Shown: one piece after another, positions 1-5,398 of the stretch
Layout of the letters: every line of letters starts with the position of its first letter
How positions within the stretch are numbered: the stretch's first letter is position 1
Assembly: GCA_007135845.1 (NCBI GenBank)
Contig: SLIC01000080.1
Location: forward strand, 1 to 5,398
Direction of reading: 5' to 3'
DNA from: Candidatus Brevefilum sp.
Lineage (GTDB): Bacteria > Chloroflexota > Anaerolineae > Anaerolineales > Anaerolineaceae
Length of the DNA: 5,398 nt
Made by a program: the position numbers and the translations under genes
Notes under the pieces: generated by a model
What the model saw: the letters and a program-made list of their open reading frames with translations, nothing else
Told to the model about the DNA's origin: nothing
Databases searched by the model: none

Positions 1-244
1 AGCCCTGGCTGACCCCACACGCTTGCTGATCCTGACCTTACTGTTCAACGGTGAGCGCGGTGTTGGCGATATCGCGGACCATTTAGCCGTCTCACAGAGT
101 GCCGTGTCACATCAATTGCGGCTGTTACGCAGTTTAGATATTGTGCGCTACCACAAAGAAGGTCGTGAAGTGTTTTATGACCTGGCAGACGATCATGTTC
201 GGGATATCCTTATGCGGACGTTCGAACATATACTTCATGACTGA
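1..244 (+). CDS. ArsR/SmtB-family metal-sensing repressor, 3' part (5' end outside window)
   Basis: Eighty C-terminal residues are visible, read from the codon at base 2; the N-terminus lies upstream of the window. The fragment opens with the ArsR hallmark ALADPTR and then shows the winged helix-turn-helix: recognition helix around SQSAVSHQLRLLR, followed by the wing HKEGREVFYDL. The last helix carries D63, H65, H76 and H79 (fragment numbering), i.e. D-x-H-x10-H-x2-H. This matches the alpha5 inter-subunit site of CzrA (Asp84, His86, His97, His100), with His where SmtB has Glu, so zinc or cobalt sensing is the best inference. Whether an alpha3N cysteine site is also present cannot be seen. The family binds DNA as a dimer and releases it when metal binds. 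The ATPase gene starts 14 bases after the TGA stop, so the pair is very likely one auto-regulated operon; the operator must lie upstream of base 1. A TTG at base 23 is internal, not the start. Confidence 0.93.
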   Translation, partial: ALADPTRLLILTLLFNGERGVGDIADHLAVSQSAVSHQLRLLRSLDIVRYHKEGREVFYDLADDHVRDILMRTFEHILHD

Positions 245-258: not shown

Positions 259-2442
259 ATGGCTGAAACAACATTGAAAATCACAGGACTGGATTGTATG
301 GACTGTGCCAATGAACTGGAAACCTCTGTCGCCGCATTACCGGGGGTGCAAGACGTCAATGTACGGTTTTTTGACAGCACCCTGACGGTGCGTGGGGATG
401 TCGACCTTGTTAAGCTGCGCAATTTGATCAACAAGTTAGGTTACCATGAAGTGCTCCATCAGGATGATGTTGATGGTGGCGATGAAGCGGCTGTCCAGCC
501 AATCGCTGTCGTTGGGTTCTGGCGCTACCTGATCCGGCAAGTCGAAACCCGGCTGGCATTAATTGCAGCTGTGGTGATTCTGGCGTCTTTTACAGCCAGT
601 TGGCTGGGTGTCTCGCGGGGCGTGGTTATTGCCATGCAGATTGGTGCCTTGATCCTGGCTGGCTGGCCAATAGCGCGCAGCGGTTTTGTCAATCTTTGGA
701 TCAATCGTACGTTCAACATAAATTTCTTGATGACGGTTGCTGGTTTGGGTGCGCTGGCGATTGGTGAATATGCTGAAGCAGCCACGTTGATCCTGCTGTT
801 TGACCTGGCGGAAGCCCTGGAGGGATTTACCAATGAGCGGGCCCGGGGAGCGATCTCACAATTGAGGGCCCTATCACCCACGCATGCGATCAGGCTTGAA
901 GCAGGGATTGAACAGCGGGTACCGGTGGAAGACCTGGTCGTTGGTGACACAATCCTGGTCAGCCCGGGTGAACGCATCCCGGTGGATGGGGTCATCGCCG
1001 AGGGTCACAGCGATATCAACCAGGCGCCAATCACCGGTGAAAGTATGCCGGTGTGGAAGGAAAAAGGCGACTCTGTTTTCAGCGGAACAGTCAATGGGAG
1101 CGGACGAGTCTTGATCGAAGTCACCCGGTTGGTTGCAGACAGCACCCTGCACCGCATTATCGAGATGGTTACTGAGGCGCAGTCCCGCCAATCACGCAGC
1201 CAGAAGTTCATCGATAAATTTGCCCAATATTACACGCCCGCCATGGTGATCCTGGCGTTGATGATGGCCGTTCTCCCGCCGCTGTTGTTTGGGGCACCAT
1301 TTCTAAACCCCATTGATGGTGGTCGCGGCTGGCTGTACCGAGCCCTGGCGCTGCTGGTGATCAGCTGCCCCTGTGCCCTGGTCATCTCTACACCGGTGAC
1401 GATGGTTGCCAGCCTGACCAAAGCCGCTCGGGAAGGGGTTTTATTTAAGGGGGGAATCTTCCTGGAACAATTGGCGCGGATCAATGTGTTCGCCTTTGAT
1501 AAAACTGGCACCCTTACCCTGGGTGAGCCGCAAGTCGTAGATACCAAGGATTTGGATTGCATGGAGGCAGCAGCTTGCGAACCCTGTGATGATTTACTGG
1601 CACTGGCATACGCCCTTGAGCGGCACAGCACCCATCCACTGGCACAGGCAATTGTGAAGGAAGCCGAAGCGCGTGGTGTAACGCACTGCTACCCGGCAGC
1701 CAGGGACCTGGTGACGCGCGGCGGGCTTGGCCTGGAGGGCAGGGTAAACGGGTATAAGATGACGATTGGCAGCTTGCGCATGTTTGAAAAGGAACATGTT
1801 ATCCCTGATGAGGTGCGTACCTGGGTCATGGAGGCTGAGGGGCAGGGTAGGACTGCCATGCTCCTCTGCGATGGTGACCGGGTACGTGGCTTTATCGCTG
1901 TTGCGGACACACTCCGTCCCGAATCTCAGGCTGTCATTGGTGCATTAAACCGCATGAAGAAACACACCCTGATGCTGACCGGTGATAATTCAGCGGTTGC
2001 CAGCGCGGTTGGTGGCTCACTGGGTTTAGATGATGTCAGGGCGAATCTGTTGCCCGGGGATAAACAGACGGCGGTGGAACAACTCCGGGAGTCCTATGGC
2101 GCAATTGCCATGGTGGGGGATGGGATTAATGATGCACCCGCATTAGCCGCAGCTAACCTGGGAATTGCGATGGGCGGCAGCGGCAGTGCCCAGGCGATGG
2201 AAACCGCGGATGTGGTCTTAATGGCGGATGACATCCACCAACTGCCCTTTGCGATCCGATTATCGGCCTTCGCTAACCGGTTGATCAGACAGAACATCGG
2301 TTTCAGCCTGGGAAGTAAATTGCTGGTCGCTGTATTTGCCCTGCTGGGTTATGCACCATTATGGCTGGCAGTACTGGCAGATATGGGCGTCTCGTTACTG
2401 GTGACGGCAAATGGGTTGCGGGCGTTGCGGTTTGAGGGGTAG
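259..2442 (+). CDS. Heavy-metal-exporting P1B-type ATPase (Zn/Cd/Pb class, ZntA/CadA-like)
   Basis: This 727-residue inner-membrane pump expels divalent soft metals using ATP. An N-terminal HMA domain (about residues 5-65) has the metal ligands C13 and C16 in GLDCMDCA. Membrane segments lie at about 98-140, 153-188, 326-345, 358-380 and 680-718. Catalytic motifs are all present: TGES 259-262 (actuator), CPC 370-372 in the membrane, phosphorylated D414 in DKTGTLT, H459-P460 of the nucleotide domain, TGDN 574-577 and GDGINDAP 620-627. K687 and D708 in the last two helices have the same 21-residue spacing as ZntA Lys693/Asp714, which marks the Zn/Cd/Pb subgroup rather than the copper pumps. Length is normal for the family. 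An unusual extra cysteine group (C434, C440, C443) sits just after the phosphorylation site. The ArsR-type gene 14 bases upstream is its likely regulator. Zn versus Cd or Pb preference cannot be decided from sequence. Confidence 0.97.
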   Translation: MAETTLKITGLDCMDCANELETSVAALPGVQDVNVRFFDSTLTVRGDVDLVKLRNLINKLGYHEVLHQDDVDGGDEAAVQPIAVVGFWRYLIRQVETRLALIAAVVILASFTASWLGVSRGVVIAMQIGALILAGWPIARSGFVNLWINRTFNINFLMTVAGLGALAIGEYAEAATLILLFDLAEALEGFTNERARGAISQLRALSPTHAIRLEAGIEQRVPVEDLVVGDTILVSPGERIPVDGVIAEGHSDINQAPITGESMPVWKEKGDSVFSGTVNGSGRVLIEVTRLVADSTLHRIIEMVTEAQSRQSRSQKFIDKFAQYYTPAMVILALMMAVLPPLLFGAPFLNPIDGGRGWLYRALALLVISCPCALVISTPVTMVASLTKAAREGVLFKGGIFLEQLARINVFAFDKTGTLTLGEPQVVDTKDLDCMEAAACEPCDDLLALAYALERHSTHPLAQAIVKEAEARGVTHCYPAARDLVTRGGLGLEGRVNGYKMTIGSLRMFEKEHVIPDEVRTWVMEAEGQGRTAMLLCDGDRVRGFIAVADTLRPESQAVIGALNRMKKHTLMLTGDNSAVASAVGGSLGLDDVRANLLPGDKQTAVEQLRESYGAIAMVGDGINDAPALAAANLGIAMGGSGSAQAMETADVVLMADDIHQLPFAIRLSAFANRLIRQNIGFSLGSKLLVAVFALLGYAPLWLAVLADMGVSLLVTANGLRALRFEG

Positions 2443-2507: not shown

Positions 2508-2948
2508 TTATGTCGGATTCGGAACATGCCTGGCGTGCCATAAATCGAAAACAAACAGGAATGCGGCTTGAAGGATGATGCCCCAACCGGTTCCCTGCCA
2601 GAAAGCGGATGTGCTGCCCAGGGTAAAGATAATCACGACGCCGCCGGCTATGTAAAGCACATCCAGGGCAGTGTTGATCCACAAGATCTTGCGTATTCTG
2701 CTGGCTTCCCGGACGTCATTTTGATCAACAGCTTCATCCATCAGGTTTTGCTTCACGCGGCGCTGACCAAGCCAGACGATGATACCATCCACAGCACCCC
2801 AGGCAAGCAACTGAATCCCAAATCCTTGCCAAAATGGGTTGCCAAAGAGTATCAAAACAACACCAGCCACCATGCTGAGAACTGCCCACAGGGCCAGCCG
2901 TCGCATCAGTGATTTTTCAAAATCCCAAATCATCCGAACACTTTTCAT
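2508..2948 (-). CDS. Small four-helix membrane protein of unknown function, with internal duplication
   Basis: I do not recognise this 146-residue protein with confidence; a DUF6992-like membrane family is possible but unverified. Four hydrophobic segments are seen at about 18-36, 42-60, 89-110 and 118-137, with a charged, basic and acidic connector (about 62-88). The two halves look like copies of one two-helix unit: FWQGFG at 39-44 and FWQGTG at 116-121 sit at the same place, each preceded by a GVV-containing helix and followed 21 residues later by an R-x-V turn. It is the last gene of the minus-strand group. The first ATG lies 32 bases inside the end of the SDR gene and has no convincing ribosome binding site. 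ATGs at 2931-2933 (residue 6) and 2904-2906 (residue 15) are alternative starts, and the second would remove the overlap. No catalytic motif is visible. Confidence 0.75.
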   Translation of the reverse strand: MKSVRMIWDFEKSLMRRLALWAVLSMVAGVVLILFGNPFWQGFGIQLLAWGAVDGIIVWLGQRRVKQNLMDEAVDQNDVREASRIRKILWINTALDVLYIAGGVVIIFTLGSTSAFWQGTGWGIILQAAFLFVFDLWHARHVPNPT

Positions 2949-3615
2949 CAGGTACCAATGCAGCCAATAATTGCGCCCAATCCGGGCAGCCTTTTTGATC
3001 CGCTTCGACCACCTCGAAGGTCACGGGAATTTGCTGCAAATCGTTTAACGCCTGCAAGCAAGTGTCGGCCAGGTCTTCCCGGCTGATGGTTCCAAGGATA
3101 TGATCGCCCTGGTCGAAGACCAGTGGATGACAGCCGCCTGGTGTGTCTTTCAACCCGCCCGGGCGAACAATGGCATAATCCAATCCGCTATGTCTTAAAG
3201 CTTCCTCACCTTTGAGCTTCCAATCCAGTATCTTGCCAAAGCGGTTCAAGGGATGCTCAGGATGGGTGACGGCTATCGAGGAAATCAGGATGAAGCGTTG
3301 TACACCCATTGATTGAGCAGCTCTAACCATATTAGCTACACCTTCGTAATCCACCCGTTTGGGGCAGTTTTTTCCAACTGGGGAAGAGGTCCCCACCGCT
3401 GAGATGACGGCTTGCATACCTTCCATTGGGTTAAGCAGTGTTTCATACTCACGCACATCGCCAACATGATAAATCAAATTTGCTCCGAATAATTCTTGAG
3501 CTTTTGATAAATCTCGCACCAGGAGCTGTGGGTAAATACCACTCGCCACCAAGTTTCTAACAATGATCTGACCGGTTCGTCCGGTACCACCTACAATTAA
3601 AATTTTATCTAACAT
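2917..3615 (-). CDS. NAD(P)-binding atypical SDR (NmrA / SDR_a5-like)
   Basis: This 232-residue soluble protein has a Rossmann fold. The dinucleotide-binding loop GGTGRTG is at residues 9-15. R34 in LLVRD after the second strand suggests NADP(H) preference. The adenine-side GDV is at 52-54. An SAVGT segment (72-76), the ISSIAV strand (111-116) and VRPGGL (150-155) are typical of the atypical SDR branch that includes NmrA, Tic62 and YwnB/YhfK-type proteins. The usual Tyr-x3-Lys pair is not evident: the region that should hold it reads DWKLKGEEAL (131-140), with lysines but no tyrosine. A redox-sensing or binding role is therefore as possible as a reductase role, and the substrate is unknown. 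The start is supported by an AGG 9 bases upstream (3625-3627). The gene begins 28 bases after the peroxiredoxin-like gene, and its 3' end overlaps the next gene. Pairing with a redox protein suggests a role in redox or stress metabolism (inference). Confidence 0.88.
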   Translation of the reverse strand: MLDKILIVGGTGRTGQIIVRNLVASGIYPQLLVRDLSKAQELFGANLIYHVGDVREYETLLNPMEGMQAVISAVGTSSPVGKNCPKRVDYEGVANMVRAAQSMGVQRFILISSIAVTHPEHPLNRFGKILDWKLKGEEALRHSGLDYAIVRPGGLKDTPGGCHPLVFDQGDHILGTISREDLADTCLQALNDLQQIPVTFEVVEADQKGCPDWAQLLAALVPDEKCSDDLGF

Positions 3616-3643: not shown

Positions 3644-4141
3644 TTAAATGGTCTGATTAAGAATATTTTGTTTGTTTATCTCCTTAAGCAGTTTTATGAT
3701 CTCATCATTTTCCGGGATATCTGACATTGAGCGGGCATAGTGAACGTAGCGGGTCACGCCTTCTTTATCGATGATCATCTGTGCAGGAACCCGGCCAAAT
3801 TTCAACAGGGTAACTTCCTGATCGTAAAGGCGGGCAGCTTGATGGTCGGGGTCTGCCAGTCCGATAAAGGGTATATTGCCCTGAATCCAGAATCTCTTAA
3901 AATCTTCCAGAGAATCTGGACCGACTGCAATAACTTCAGTCTCAGTTTGGACAAACTGATGGTAATCCTGGCACAACTGTGCCATATGCCTGCGGCAGAA
4001 TGATCAGGTAAAGCCGCGGTTAAATACCAGGTAGACATTCTTTTTGCCCTCAAAATCTGACAGACTAACGTCTTTGCCCTGGGTGTTGGTTAATGTGAAA
4101 TCACGAGCTTTTTCACCTTGCTTGATTCGTTTGCTTGTCAT
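3644..4141 (-). CDS. Peroxiredoxin-like (AhpC/TSA, PRX_like2-type) selenoprotein with in-frame TGA at codon 46
   Basis: Read through the TGA at 4004-4006 as selenocysteine, the product is 165 residues, the usual size for a thioredoxin-fold peroxiredoxin-like protein. The N-terminal part (1-45) is family-typical: a DFTLTN segment, a GKDVSLSDFEGK turn, then the strand YLVFNRGFT. The active site becomes U46-S-F-C49 followed by RRHMAQL, so the TGA occupies the first (peroxidatic) cysteine of the family's CxxC. Downstream come a VGPDS turn (73-77), ADPD (96-99), the cis-proline region VPAQMIID around P119, and a C-terminal helix. The expected role is reduction of peroxides or disulfides in the cytosol. 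The ATG at 4141 has GGAG seven bases upstream, overlapping the end of the hydrolase gene; only 4 bases separate the two genes. Codons before and after the TGA are in the same frame, so no frameshift is needed. Alternatives are a recent nonsense mutation or a base error. An internal ATG at 3985 would give 113 residues lacking the active site, and I reject it as the real start. Confidence 0.85.
3969..3984 (-). promoter_or_regulatory. Candidate bacterial SECIS hairpin
   Basis: In the mRNA the sequence UGGCAC-AGUU-GUGCCA forms a perfect 6-bp stem with a 4-base loop. Exactly 25 bases lie between the UGA and the first loop base. Known bacterial SECIS elements have the apical loop roughly 16-37 bases after the UGA and a G among the first two loop bases; here the loop starts A-G and contains the GU seen in the E. 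coli fdhF loop. A bulged U such as that in the fdhF upper stem is not obvious. The hairpin lies inside the codons for M53 to Q58, so it has to satisfy both protein and RNA constraints. Its partner would be the SelB elongation factor, whose gene is not in this window. Confidence 0.75.
4004..4006 (-). other. Candidate selenocysteine codon (UGA)
   Basis: Codon 46 of the peroxiredoxin-like gene is TGA, flanked by ACC and TCA. It falls at the first position of a CxxC-type redox motif (reads U-S-F-C), the classic position for selenocysteine in thioredoxin-fold selenoproteins. TGA is one base from the Cys codons TGC and TGT. The coding signal on both sides is clear and continuous. TGA cannot simply be reassigned as a general sense codon here, since the ArsR-type, SDR and partial hydrolase genes all appear to end with TGA. 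Confidence 0.82.
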
Positions 4142-4145
4142 TGTA

Positions 4146-5120
4146 TTACTCCAATATCATTGTGATAAAGTCATCGATTGCAGCCAGGAAATCCACCGGA
4201 CATTCTTCCTGAGGGAGGTGACCGCAGTTTTCAATCACCACCAGGGTTGTGTCAGGAATGTCTTCCGCCAGGCGCAGGCTGGCTTCCAAAGGAACGATCT
4301 GGTCATCCTCGCCAGCAATCACCAGGGTTGGGACTAGAATTTCGTTCAATCGCTCTGCCAATCCAGGCGGACTGGCAGCCTTGGTATGTTCCCACAGGGC
4401 GCGATCCCAATTGTCTGCCATAAGGGGTTTTCGATAGCCAGCGATAATGTCGGGGTTTGCCTCAACCTGGCTGGGATCGCTCCAGGCGCTGCGGATGAAG
4501 GCATCGCCCTGACTGCCTGCTAACCGGCGGGCGATCAGTGGGCCGATGTGATCCACCTGGGGGGTGCTCAGCAGCCAATTCAAAATAGGGGCATCGGGCC
4601 TGGTCTGGTAAATGGCTGCATTGACCTGGATCAATGCTTGCACACGCTGTGGATGTGCCAGTGTGAAGGCGGTCGCCAGGGTGCCGCCAGCAGAGTTGCC
4701 GACCAGGATCGCTTGTTCAATTGCCATTTCGTCCATTAATCCGATCAGCAGGTCGATATTGCTCTCCTGGGTGTAGGGGTTTGCACCTTCCCAGGTGAGC
4801 GGTCGTTCGGTTAACCCGAAAGCGGGGCGGTCATAGGCGATTACCATGCCGTATGTCGAAAGTGGGTCGAGCACTTCTCGCCACGAGAAGGTGCTGGCGC
4901 CAAACCCATGCAATAAAATAAAGGCCGGTTCTCCCTGGCCGCTGCGCTTGAGATGTACATTGAGGTCATTGATTTCCAGAAAGATACTGTCAGGGTCAGC
5001 CAGTTCTTGCGGCGGGCGGGTATTTTCCACGCTGCCCACAGGTACGAGGAAGGGCCCAACCAATAACACAACGAGGAGTGTGGTGATGACAATCAGGGTG
5101 ATCTTCCAACCTTTTTTCAT
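4146..5120 (-). CDS. Membrane-anchored alpha/beta hydrolase
   Basis: This 324-residue serine hydrolase is counted from the ATG at 5120. A basic start MKKGWK and one hydrophobic helix (about residues 7-25) form a signal anchor, placing the catalytic domain outside the cytoplasm or at the membrane surface. The alpha/beta fold shows the oxyanion HGFG at 71-74, the nucleophile elbow GNSAGG with Ser143, the acid in AGEDDQIVP (Asp273 most likely) and His301 in NCGHLPQEE, so the triad is complete. A cap region lies at about 165-255. Overall it resembles epoxide hydrolase / meta-cleavage-product hydrolase / lipase relatives; the substrate cannot be told. Start choice: GGAG lies five bases before the ATG at 5120. 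An alternative ATG at 5135 forms an ATGA overlap with the preceding gene's stop but has no ribosome binding site; it would add five residues. It is followed after 4 bases by the peroxiredoxin-like gene, so the two are very likely translated together. Confidence 0.92.
   Translation of the reverse strand: MKKGWKITLIVITTLLVVLLVGPFLVPVGSVENTRPPQELADPDSIFLEINDLNVHLKRSGQGEPAFILLHGFGASTFSWREVLDPLSTYGMVIAYDRPAFGLTERPLTWEGANPYTQESNIDLLIGLMDEMAIEQAILVGNSAGGTLATAFTLAHPQRVQALIQVNAAIYQTRPDAPILNWLLSTPQVDHIGPLIARRLAGSQGDAFIRSAWSDPSQVEANPDIIAGYRKPLMADNWDRALWEHTKAASPPGLAERLNEILVPTLVIAGEDDQIVPLEASLRLAEDIPDTTLVVIENCGHLPQEECPVDFLAAIDDFITMILE
4149..4152 (-). promoter_or_regulatory. Ribosome binding site that fixes the start of the peroxiredoxin-like gene
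   Basis: GGAG lies seven bases before the ATG at 4141, and the hydrolase stop TAA (4146-4148) follows it directly. This well-placed site shows that translation starts upstream of the TGA, which argues for readthrough over initiation at the internal ATG at 3985. Confidence 0.75.
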
Positions 5121-5125
5121 TCGTA

Positions 5126-5129
5126 CTCC
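5126..5129 (-). promoter_or_regulatory. Ribosome binding site of the membrane-anchored hydrolase
   Basis: GGAG lies five bases before the ATG at 5120 and just after the TGA stop (5132-5134) of the upstream hydrolase. It favours 5120 over the ATG at 5135, which overlaps that stop. Confidence 0.6.
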
Positions 5130-5131
5130 AA

Positions 5132-5398
5132 TCATTGCCCGATAGATTGCAAGAATGTAACCGTTGCCTGAACGATCTGATTCTGTTGTTCTGCTTGACT
5201 GAGGGAGGCAACACCGTCACCATTTTGGTCGCCGTACCAACCAAAACCAGCATGGTTCCCGCCGGTAATTTCTACAAATATGGTACTGGCAGGCAAGCGG
5301 TTCTGTGAGTCGGCAATGTCCTCAAGGGTTGCCAGCCCGTCGTTACTGGCAAAAACAGAAAGGACCGGCAGGCTTGAGTCAGTGAGGTCGTTACTGCC
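5132..5398 (-). CDS. Alpha/beta hydrolase, Abhydrolase_5-like, C-terminal part (5' end outside window)
   Basis: Eighty-eight C-terminal residues are visible, ending at a TGA. They show the end of an alpha/beta hydrolase fold: the strand PVLSVFASNDG with the likely catalytic acid D20 (fragment numbering), a VEITGGNHAGFG segment with the catalytic His49, and a last helix QIVQATVTFLQS. The spacing of Asp and His and the phrase GGNH-x2-FG are typical of the Abhydrolase_5 family (predicted dienelactone-hydrolase-like enzymes). The nucleophile lies outside the window. After the His, the loop reads GDQNGDGVASLSQAEQ, which has a DxNxDG look. It belongs to a different hydrolase subgroup from its downstream neighbour, so this is not simply a tandem duplication. 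Its stop overlaps an ATG and sits next to the ribosome binding site of the next gene, so the two are co-transcribed. Confidence 0.85.
   Translation of the reverse strand, partial: GSNDLTDSSLPVLSVFASNDGLATLEDIADSQNRLPASTIFVEITGGNHAGFGWYGDQNGDGVASLSQAEQQNQIVQATVTFLQSIGQ

Follow-up and report, generated by a model that had tools for sequence, protein, structure and literature searches.

The stretch of DNA analysed here (the window) comprises 5,398 nucleotides from Candidatus Brevefilum sp. (assembly GCA_007135845.1, contig SLIC01000080.1), and its minus strand carries, at 4141..3644, a gene that very probably encodes a selenoprotein of 165 residues, in which a UGA codon would be read as selenocysteine (Sec) at position 46 by means of a hairpin, the product having a peroxiredoxin (Prx) fold with a thioredoxin-like active site. 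The frame begins with ATG and holds 45 codons including that Met, one TGA, 119 further codons and TAA. A sequence-only reading of the window had described this layout, with a strong start, a TGA on the first position of a CxxC site, and a part of 113 residues as all that gene callers would report. Each of these points is found at the locus: GGAG lies at 4152..4149, 7 bases ahead of the ATG; the codons count exactly so; the active-site motif is U46-S47-F48-C49, followed by RRHMAQL; and the open reading frame (ORF) listed in this frame with translation table 11 is 3985..3644, 113 amino acids long, with an identical fragment in the protein database (P0002). The gene and its features, with the evidence for each in brackets, are:

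3644..4141, minus strand: candidate selenoprotein gene, Prx-like redox protein of 165 residues with Sec at 46 (frame and homology)
4149..4152, minus strand: GGAG ribosome-binding site, 7 bases ahead of the ATG, within the 3' end of the upstream gene (upstream sequence)
4004..4006, minus strand: UGA codon, putative Sec46 (TGA in 80/80 kept relatives; Cys in homologs)
3995..3997, minus strand: Cys49 codon, partner in U-x-x-C (alignments; TGC in 81/81 genes)
3969..3984, minus strand: hairpin UGGCAC-AGUU-GUGCCA, resembling a selenocysteine insertion sequence (SECIS), bases 23-38 from the U of UGA (comparison of relatives)
3975..3978, minus strand: apical loop AGUU, bases 29-32, containing the G expected of bacterial SECIS loops
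3980..3982, minus strand: Ala54 codon GCA, whose third base is paired with the first of codon 57
3971..3973, minus strand: codon 57, TGC (Cys), partner half of a compensatory pair (CGC/CGT, Arg, in 77/81 genes)

The read-through product matches PF00578 over residues 9-132, spanning the TGA (5.9e-24, 84.8 bits, cut-off 26), which indicates that the frame on both sides of the TGA forms a single coding unit, more than chance would give; its match to PF08534 (66.2 bits, cut-off 26.6) crosses the TGA as well. Scanning genomes with alignment A2 gave 361 relatives, of which the 80 most similar to the window protein were kept. Of the two search patterns used, one required Trp or Cys at this residue and the second lay elsewhere, which left the scan without bias to TGA. 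The aligned codon is TGA in all 80 kept relatives, which come from several phyla, and TGG at none of these loci; the N-terminal 45 residues are conserved, and the remainder of the protein is under evident constraint. The phyla on record for the rows of the tree are Chloroflexota, Thermodesulfobacteriota, Actinomycetota, Myxococcota, Calditrichota and Spirochaetota, and no relative in a viral contig was confirmed. Cys or TGA had been expected at this position of homologs, and alignment of the read-through product bears this out: besides the TGA codons, Cys homologs were found (P0027, L105 and 13 of 16 further proteins), so that the in-frame UGA stands where homologs have Cys.

Wider samples of genomes agree on the codon. 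In a sample of 301 genomes from the phylum to which G001 (the Brevefilum relative) belongs, matches at 1e-20 occurred in 44; a line of 147 bits, set after the list was seen, leaves 30 matches in 29 genomes, and 29 of the 30 contain TGA, the one without being the copy in G280 (L105), whose DNA reads TGC at the site. A class sample of 396 genomes, partly shared with the phylum sample, was searched with a Cys protein; at 1e-35 it yielded 115 matches from 111 genomes, each with exactly one TGA. From the phylum of G012, a Smithellaceae relative, 247 genomes gave 19 matches in 14 genomes at 1e-35, with TGA in 14 and none in five; four of these five are Cys copies in G433, a genome that also has a TGA copy, and the fifth (G477, L124) begins past the site, with the TGA sitting upstream of the match. 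The G433 Cys copies (L126 to L129) read CxxS in three cases and CxxT in one, beside the one TGA copy. Five loci of the same sample (L118, L119, L120, L122 and L123, around 1501-1960) belong to a related subfamily and show a UxxA variant, RGF-x-U-P-[FY]-A, with TGA at the same place and Ala in place of the second Cys. A weaker Prx-like group in the 301-genome phylum sample (that of G001) comprises 29 matches (75 to 121 bits), with TGA in 20 of them, in 20 genomes; the position of the TGA was checked in L110.

The protein databases present a different picture of the same family. A protein search gave 617 homologs; among the 120 that were listed, 104 have lengths of 103 to 136 residues and the other 16 are full-length. 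All six short homologs that were fetched (P0002, P0029, P0032, P0059, P0065 and P0071) start past the Sec site, and length and coverage suggest that the remaining short ones also begin after it; such fragment annotations fit with the absence of any NCBIfam model that passes for the window protein. The residue at the site is Trp in 15 of the 16 full-length listed homologs and Cys in one (P0027). A search with P0027 gave 211 homologs, 120 of them listed, and 16 more full-length proteins fetched from it have Cys in 13 cases and Trp in three. All 15 Trp entries of the first search lie on contigs of at most 1413 bases, so they are probably records in which TGA was translated with table 4, as a fallback by gene finders on short contigs. 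Trp as a genuine state of homologs was accordingly set aside in favour of table-4 gene calls. Entries with Trp at the Sec site include P0003, P0004, P0006 and P0010.

The hairpin starts 19 bases past the UGA. A bacterial SECIS is described as having a small apical loop containing G (PMC1088965), and this is what is conserved just past the UGA: bases 23-38 read UGGCGC-AGUU-GCGCCA in most relatives, and the window has UGGCAC-AGUU-GUGCCA. Exactly this helix was found unaided by RNAalifold in 91 sequences. Over 86 distinct rows, 99.4% of cells pair, and three of the six pairs have changed on both sides (5 cells); in a shuffle test on this alignment 0/500 shuffles reach any of five measures, and the structure slid along the alignment pairs 17 to 66% of cells. 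Codon choice in the hairpin is nearly frozen: across 81 genes, TTG encodes the loop Leu in 79/79 (background 20%), GCG the Ala in 74/77 (22.5%) and CAG the Gln in 80/80 (65%). The sequence-only reading had claimed a SECIS-like hairpin within 4006..3960, and one does lie there, at 3984..3969; the window alone yields no evidence for it, and it becomes convincing across relatives only. Folding of the single sequence was therefore rejected as evidence, for reasons of score given below, and the argument is a comparative one. An Rfam search of the window gave 0 matches up to E = 1.

With distant relatives included, 133 genes have the TGA site; the AGUU loop begins at base 29 in 109 of them, in 13, a subclade with FLRGF-x-U-P-x-C-R-A-type motifs, the loop is instead AGUUG, AGUUA or GUU and lies at base 20 or 21, and 11 have other best stems. 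In the subclade (L089, L090, L092 to L095, L097 to L102 and L104) the AGUU-type hairpin lies nine bases nearer the UGA and encodes different residues. The Cys copy L105 is without such a hairpin. L110, of the weaker Prx-like group, has a differently paired hairpin, UCACGC-GGUU-GCGUGA, at the same place.

The pairing also bears on the protein. Ala54 is encoded by GCA in two of the three rows that depart from GCG, namely the window and L011; codon 57, which is CGC or CGT (Arg) in most genes, is TGC (Cys) in precisely these two rows. By this double change the window preserves the base pair and gives up Arg57 for Cys. The tree places the window as sister to L001 (73% identical, with Arg) within an Anaerolineaceae group and L011 in a separate, well-supported group, so the change from Arg57 to Cys probably arose at least twice; L109, a distant relative outside the tree, has the same base pair and the same Cys57. 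Mapping the labels 'Cys form' and 'Cys57' onto the tree and counting their changes was judged uninformative, with 5/57 rows labelled, 22 forks open and the bootstrap unsettled. In the Arg57 to Cys change an amino acid is clearly dictated by an RNA element that lies within the gene.

The machinery for Sec was surveyed in the genomes of the first 50 of the 80 loci and in 14 control genomes. SelB passes its curated cut-off in 46/50 genomes versus 2/14 controls. A tRNA-Sec over the Rfam score is present in 46/50; since 5/14 controls also pass, the Rfam gathering score was rejected as a test of presence, and a line of 60 bits, chosen after the list was seen, is passed by 43/50 genomes. Among the ten nearest genomes, SelA passes its cut-off in 9 and SelD in 8, SelB is present in 9, and a tRNA-Sec of at least 60 bits in 8. 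In all eight SelD-positive genomes among these (G001 to G005 and G008 to G010) a SelD copy has one in-frame TGA, a further hint that UGA may stand for Sec there, and SelD itself may be a selenoprotein in these genomes. Four of them also contain a SelD whose frame is longer (743 to 752 residues) and free of TGA. In the phylum sample SelB occurs in 234/301 genomes, among them every one of the 29 that have a strong match (hypergeometric P 4.4e-4, uncorrected for kinship).

Several observations weigh against a selenoprotein with a redox role. The window hairpin folded alone is not significant (z = -0.58), and codon shuffles of the window are as good in 159/2000 cases by stem and in 54/2000 by energy. 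The structure shifted by +3 also has three pairs (4 cells) changed on both sides, with 39.9% of cells pairing. One of the three true both-side pairs depends on L036, a row of another type left in; of the other two, one rests on L041 and L073 and one on the window and L011. We infer the Sec machinery of the window organism from the genomes of its relatives, and three of the 50 (G006, G024 and G049) lack both a SelB above the cut-off and a tRNA-Sec reaching 60 bits. The G006 contig (L006 1-6426), from a record labelled Marinimicrobia, carries the Anaerolineaceae operon and is thus likely mis-binned; the G024 genome is 0.9 Mb; and in G049 two neighbouring SelB pieces (171 and 123 bits), both short of the cut-off, may together represent one broken gene. 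Two genomes of the weaker 75-121-bit group, G094 and G307, have a TGA match and no SelB found at the threshold used. Finally, because no NCBIfam model passes its cut-off for the window protein, the redox role is drawn from motif and fold only.

Other explanations of the same locus can be weighed against this evidence. We consider it quite improbable that a changed code, or a tRNA that reads UGA, makes the codon Cys or Trp without any selenium. The site tolerates Cys, and Trp stands there in 15 of the 16 full-length proteins among the 120 listed homologs; however, these Trp entries have the short contigs expected of a table-4 fallback, the DNA shows TGA in 80/80 and TGG in 0/80, and TGA serves as an ordinary stop elsewhere in the window, ending the ArsR gene, the NAD-binding gene and the partial hydrolase. 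This explanation would also leave the conserved hairpin and the Sec machinery without a reason. As a source of Cys at UGA, SepRS in Chloroflexi was considered and dropped: PMC5424206 treats SepRS/SepCysS and tRNA-Cys, its main text does not mention UGA, and it lends no support.

Could the 113-residue ORF from the ATG at 3985 be the real protein, its upstream part untranslated? The lengths of the listed homologs, 104 of 120 having 103 to 136 residues, would suit this; but the N-terminal 45 residues are conserved and lie within the PF00578 match, the fragment is without the first strands of the fold and without U46 and C49, and a good ribosome-binding site precedes 4141, which makes this option very improbable. 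A single stop in an otherwise open frame, reported as a fragment by gene callers, might suggest a pseudogene of a Cys peroxiredoxin, arisen by nonsense mutation or sequencing error. The same TGA in all 80 kept relatives from several phyla contradicts this, as does the evident constraint on the rest of the protein, and its probability is close to negligible. A selenoprotein with UxxC on a peroxiredoxin-like scaffold, as the sequence-only reading had it, is thus the account that we favour, given TGA in 80/80, the Cys homologs, the covarying hairpin and the nearest genomes' Sec machinery. These points, like the frame and its homology, are read from sequence.

For this organism we infer Sec insertion, along with chemistry, substrate and partner, and we propose the following. 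The ribosome would start at 4141; at the UGA (4006..4004), SelB and Sec-tRNA(Sec), recruited by the hairpin at 3984..3969, would insert selenocysteine as residue 46, giving a product with the peroxiredoxin fold and a thioredoxin-like active site. Sec46 would be the likely attacking nucleophile and Cys49 would resolve the mixed selenenyl-sulfide, so that the protein may act as a thiol-disulfide oxidoreductase or a thiol-dependent peroxidase in an Anaerolineaceae-like bacterium. The structure model of the window protein predicts a full peroxiredoxin fold. In the alignments, Sec46 faces the Thr of the Prx TxxC and the first Cys of the ResA CxxC; opposite Cys49 stand the second Cys of ResA and, in Bcp-type peroxiredoxins, the peroxidatic Cys. 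This makes a thiol-disulfide site of the UxxC type likely. It is possible, though we lean against it, that the protein is a selenoprotein that mainly reduces peroxides, as Bcp/PrxQ do, the peroxidatic residue being Cys49 or Sec46. The Prx motif is PxxxTxxC, and its Pro and Thr positions are taken in the window protein by R42 and U46, which argues against that role, as does the UxxC arrangement, which matches thiol-disulfide oxidoreductases of the ResA type.

The gene belongs to a minus-strand operon of closely spaced genes, consisting of two alpha/beta hydrolases, the window gene, an NAD(P)H-binding protein and a DUF6992 protein. The other genes of the window, with their occurrence in the ten nearest loci, are:

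5132..5398, minus strand: alpha/beta hydrolase, cut by the window end (8/10)
4146..5135, minus strand: alpha/beta hydrolase, upstream operon gene (8/10)
2917..3615, minus strand: NAD(P)H-binding protein, downstream operon gene (10/10)
2508..2948, minus strand: DUF6992 protein, operon end (2/10)
2 to 244, plus strand: ArsR-type regulator (9/10)
259..2442, plus strand: heavy-metal P-type ATPase, after ArsR (9/10)

These occurrences come from a search of each of the 80 loci with the window's proteins. In the nearest ten, the neighbour genes have the same arrangement where present; the NAD-binding gene was found in 0 of the other 70 loci searched in this way. Taken by itself, this distribution marks the window organism as a probable relative of the Anaerolineaceae near Brevefilum; the gene in question is spread more widely.

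The kind of protein to which the window gene would belong is known. A 'Prx-like thiol:disulfide oxidoreductase', defined by PF00578 with UxxC or UxxU, is listed as a high-confidence predicted family in a 2026 review (PMC13188914); the GOS survey counts 225 'Prx-like 1' UxxC selenoproteins (PMC2398784), the Sargasso Sea paper sets UXXC against the TXXU of Prx (PMC1088965), and a 2006 survey gives the family in Syntrophus, Desulfotalea and Geobacter, with only three selenoproteins in Chloroflexi (PMC1794560). The term 'undetected', which the sequence-only reading had used, holds for the collections that were searched; publications on the general kind go back to 2005 or earlier (PMC1088965). No description of this branch in Chloroflexi or Anaerolineae was returned by a literature search, with figures, supplements and most subscription papers outside its reach. 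With somewhat better than even confidence, we propose as new that this UPFC branch is nearly Sec-obligate across Chloroflexota and several other phyla, its protein being shaped by the SECIS; that the pair-keeping change of Arg57 to Cys occurred separately in the window lineage, L011 and L109; that the AGUU hairpin of one subclade moved nine bases (three codons) upstream; and that databases hold mostly N-terminally cut fragments or artefactual Trp. A redox selenoprotein branch of widespread uncultured bacteria is recorded mostly as fragments without the catalytic residue, and for this reason enzyme counts and estimates of selenium demand for these organisms are too low. The covarying hairpin provides a ready template for a search model.

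Among known systems, the closest by domain and motif is the Prx-like thiol:disulfide oxidoreductase (representative WP_010940744.1), reported from Deltaproteobacteria, Syntrophus and Geobacter among them, which likewise combines PF00578, UxxC and a hairpin directly after the UGA (PMC13188914, PMC2398784, PMC1088965, PMC1794560). With PF00578 over its gathering score and the UxxC motif, the window gene falls, as judged from its sequence, under the definition of this kind; its branch differs in having NRGF-x-U-P-[FY]-C, the window itself with S for P, and in being common in the Chloroflexota samples, where it is mostly recorded as fragments. The SelL-related redox proteins (NF040769) are the best-scoring NCBIfam model for the window protein, and 57/57 alignment members match that model at E 0.001, as they do the ResA and BCP models; the window protein reaches 64.1 bits, versus a cut-off of 120, and has the motif UxxC, so the label 'SelL-type', which the sequence-only reading mentions, does not hold for it. 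PrxU, the Sec peroxiredoxin with TxxU, shares the fold family and a Sec at the active site; the score of the window protein with NF040737 is 29.6 versus a cut-off of 270, and its Sec lies at the Thr position, with Cys at the peroxidatic one. ResA has a CxxC that aligns with U46/C49, and Bcp (PrxQ) shares the overall fold and Cys49; in contrast to both, the window protein has Sec in place of Cys or Thr and a different flanking motif.
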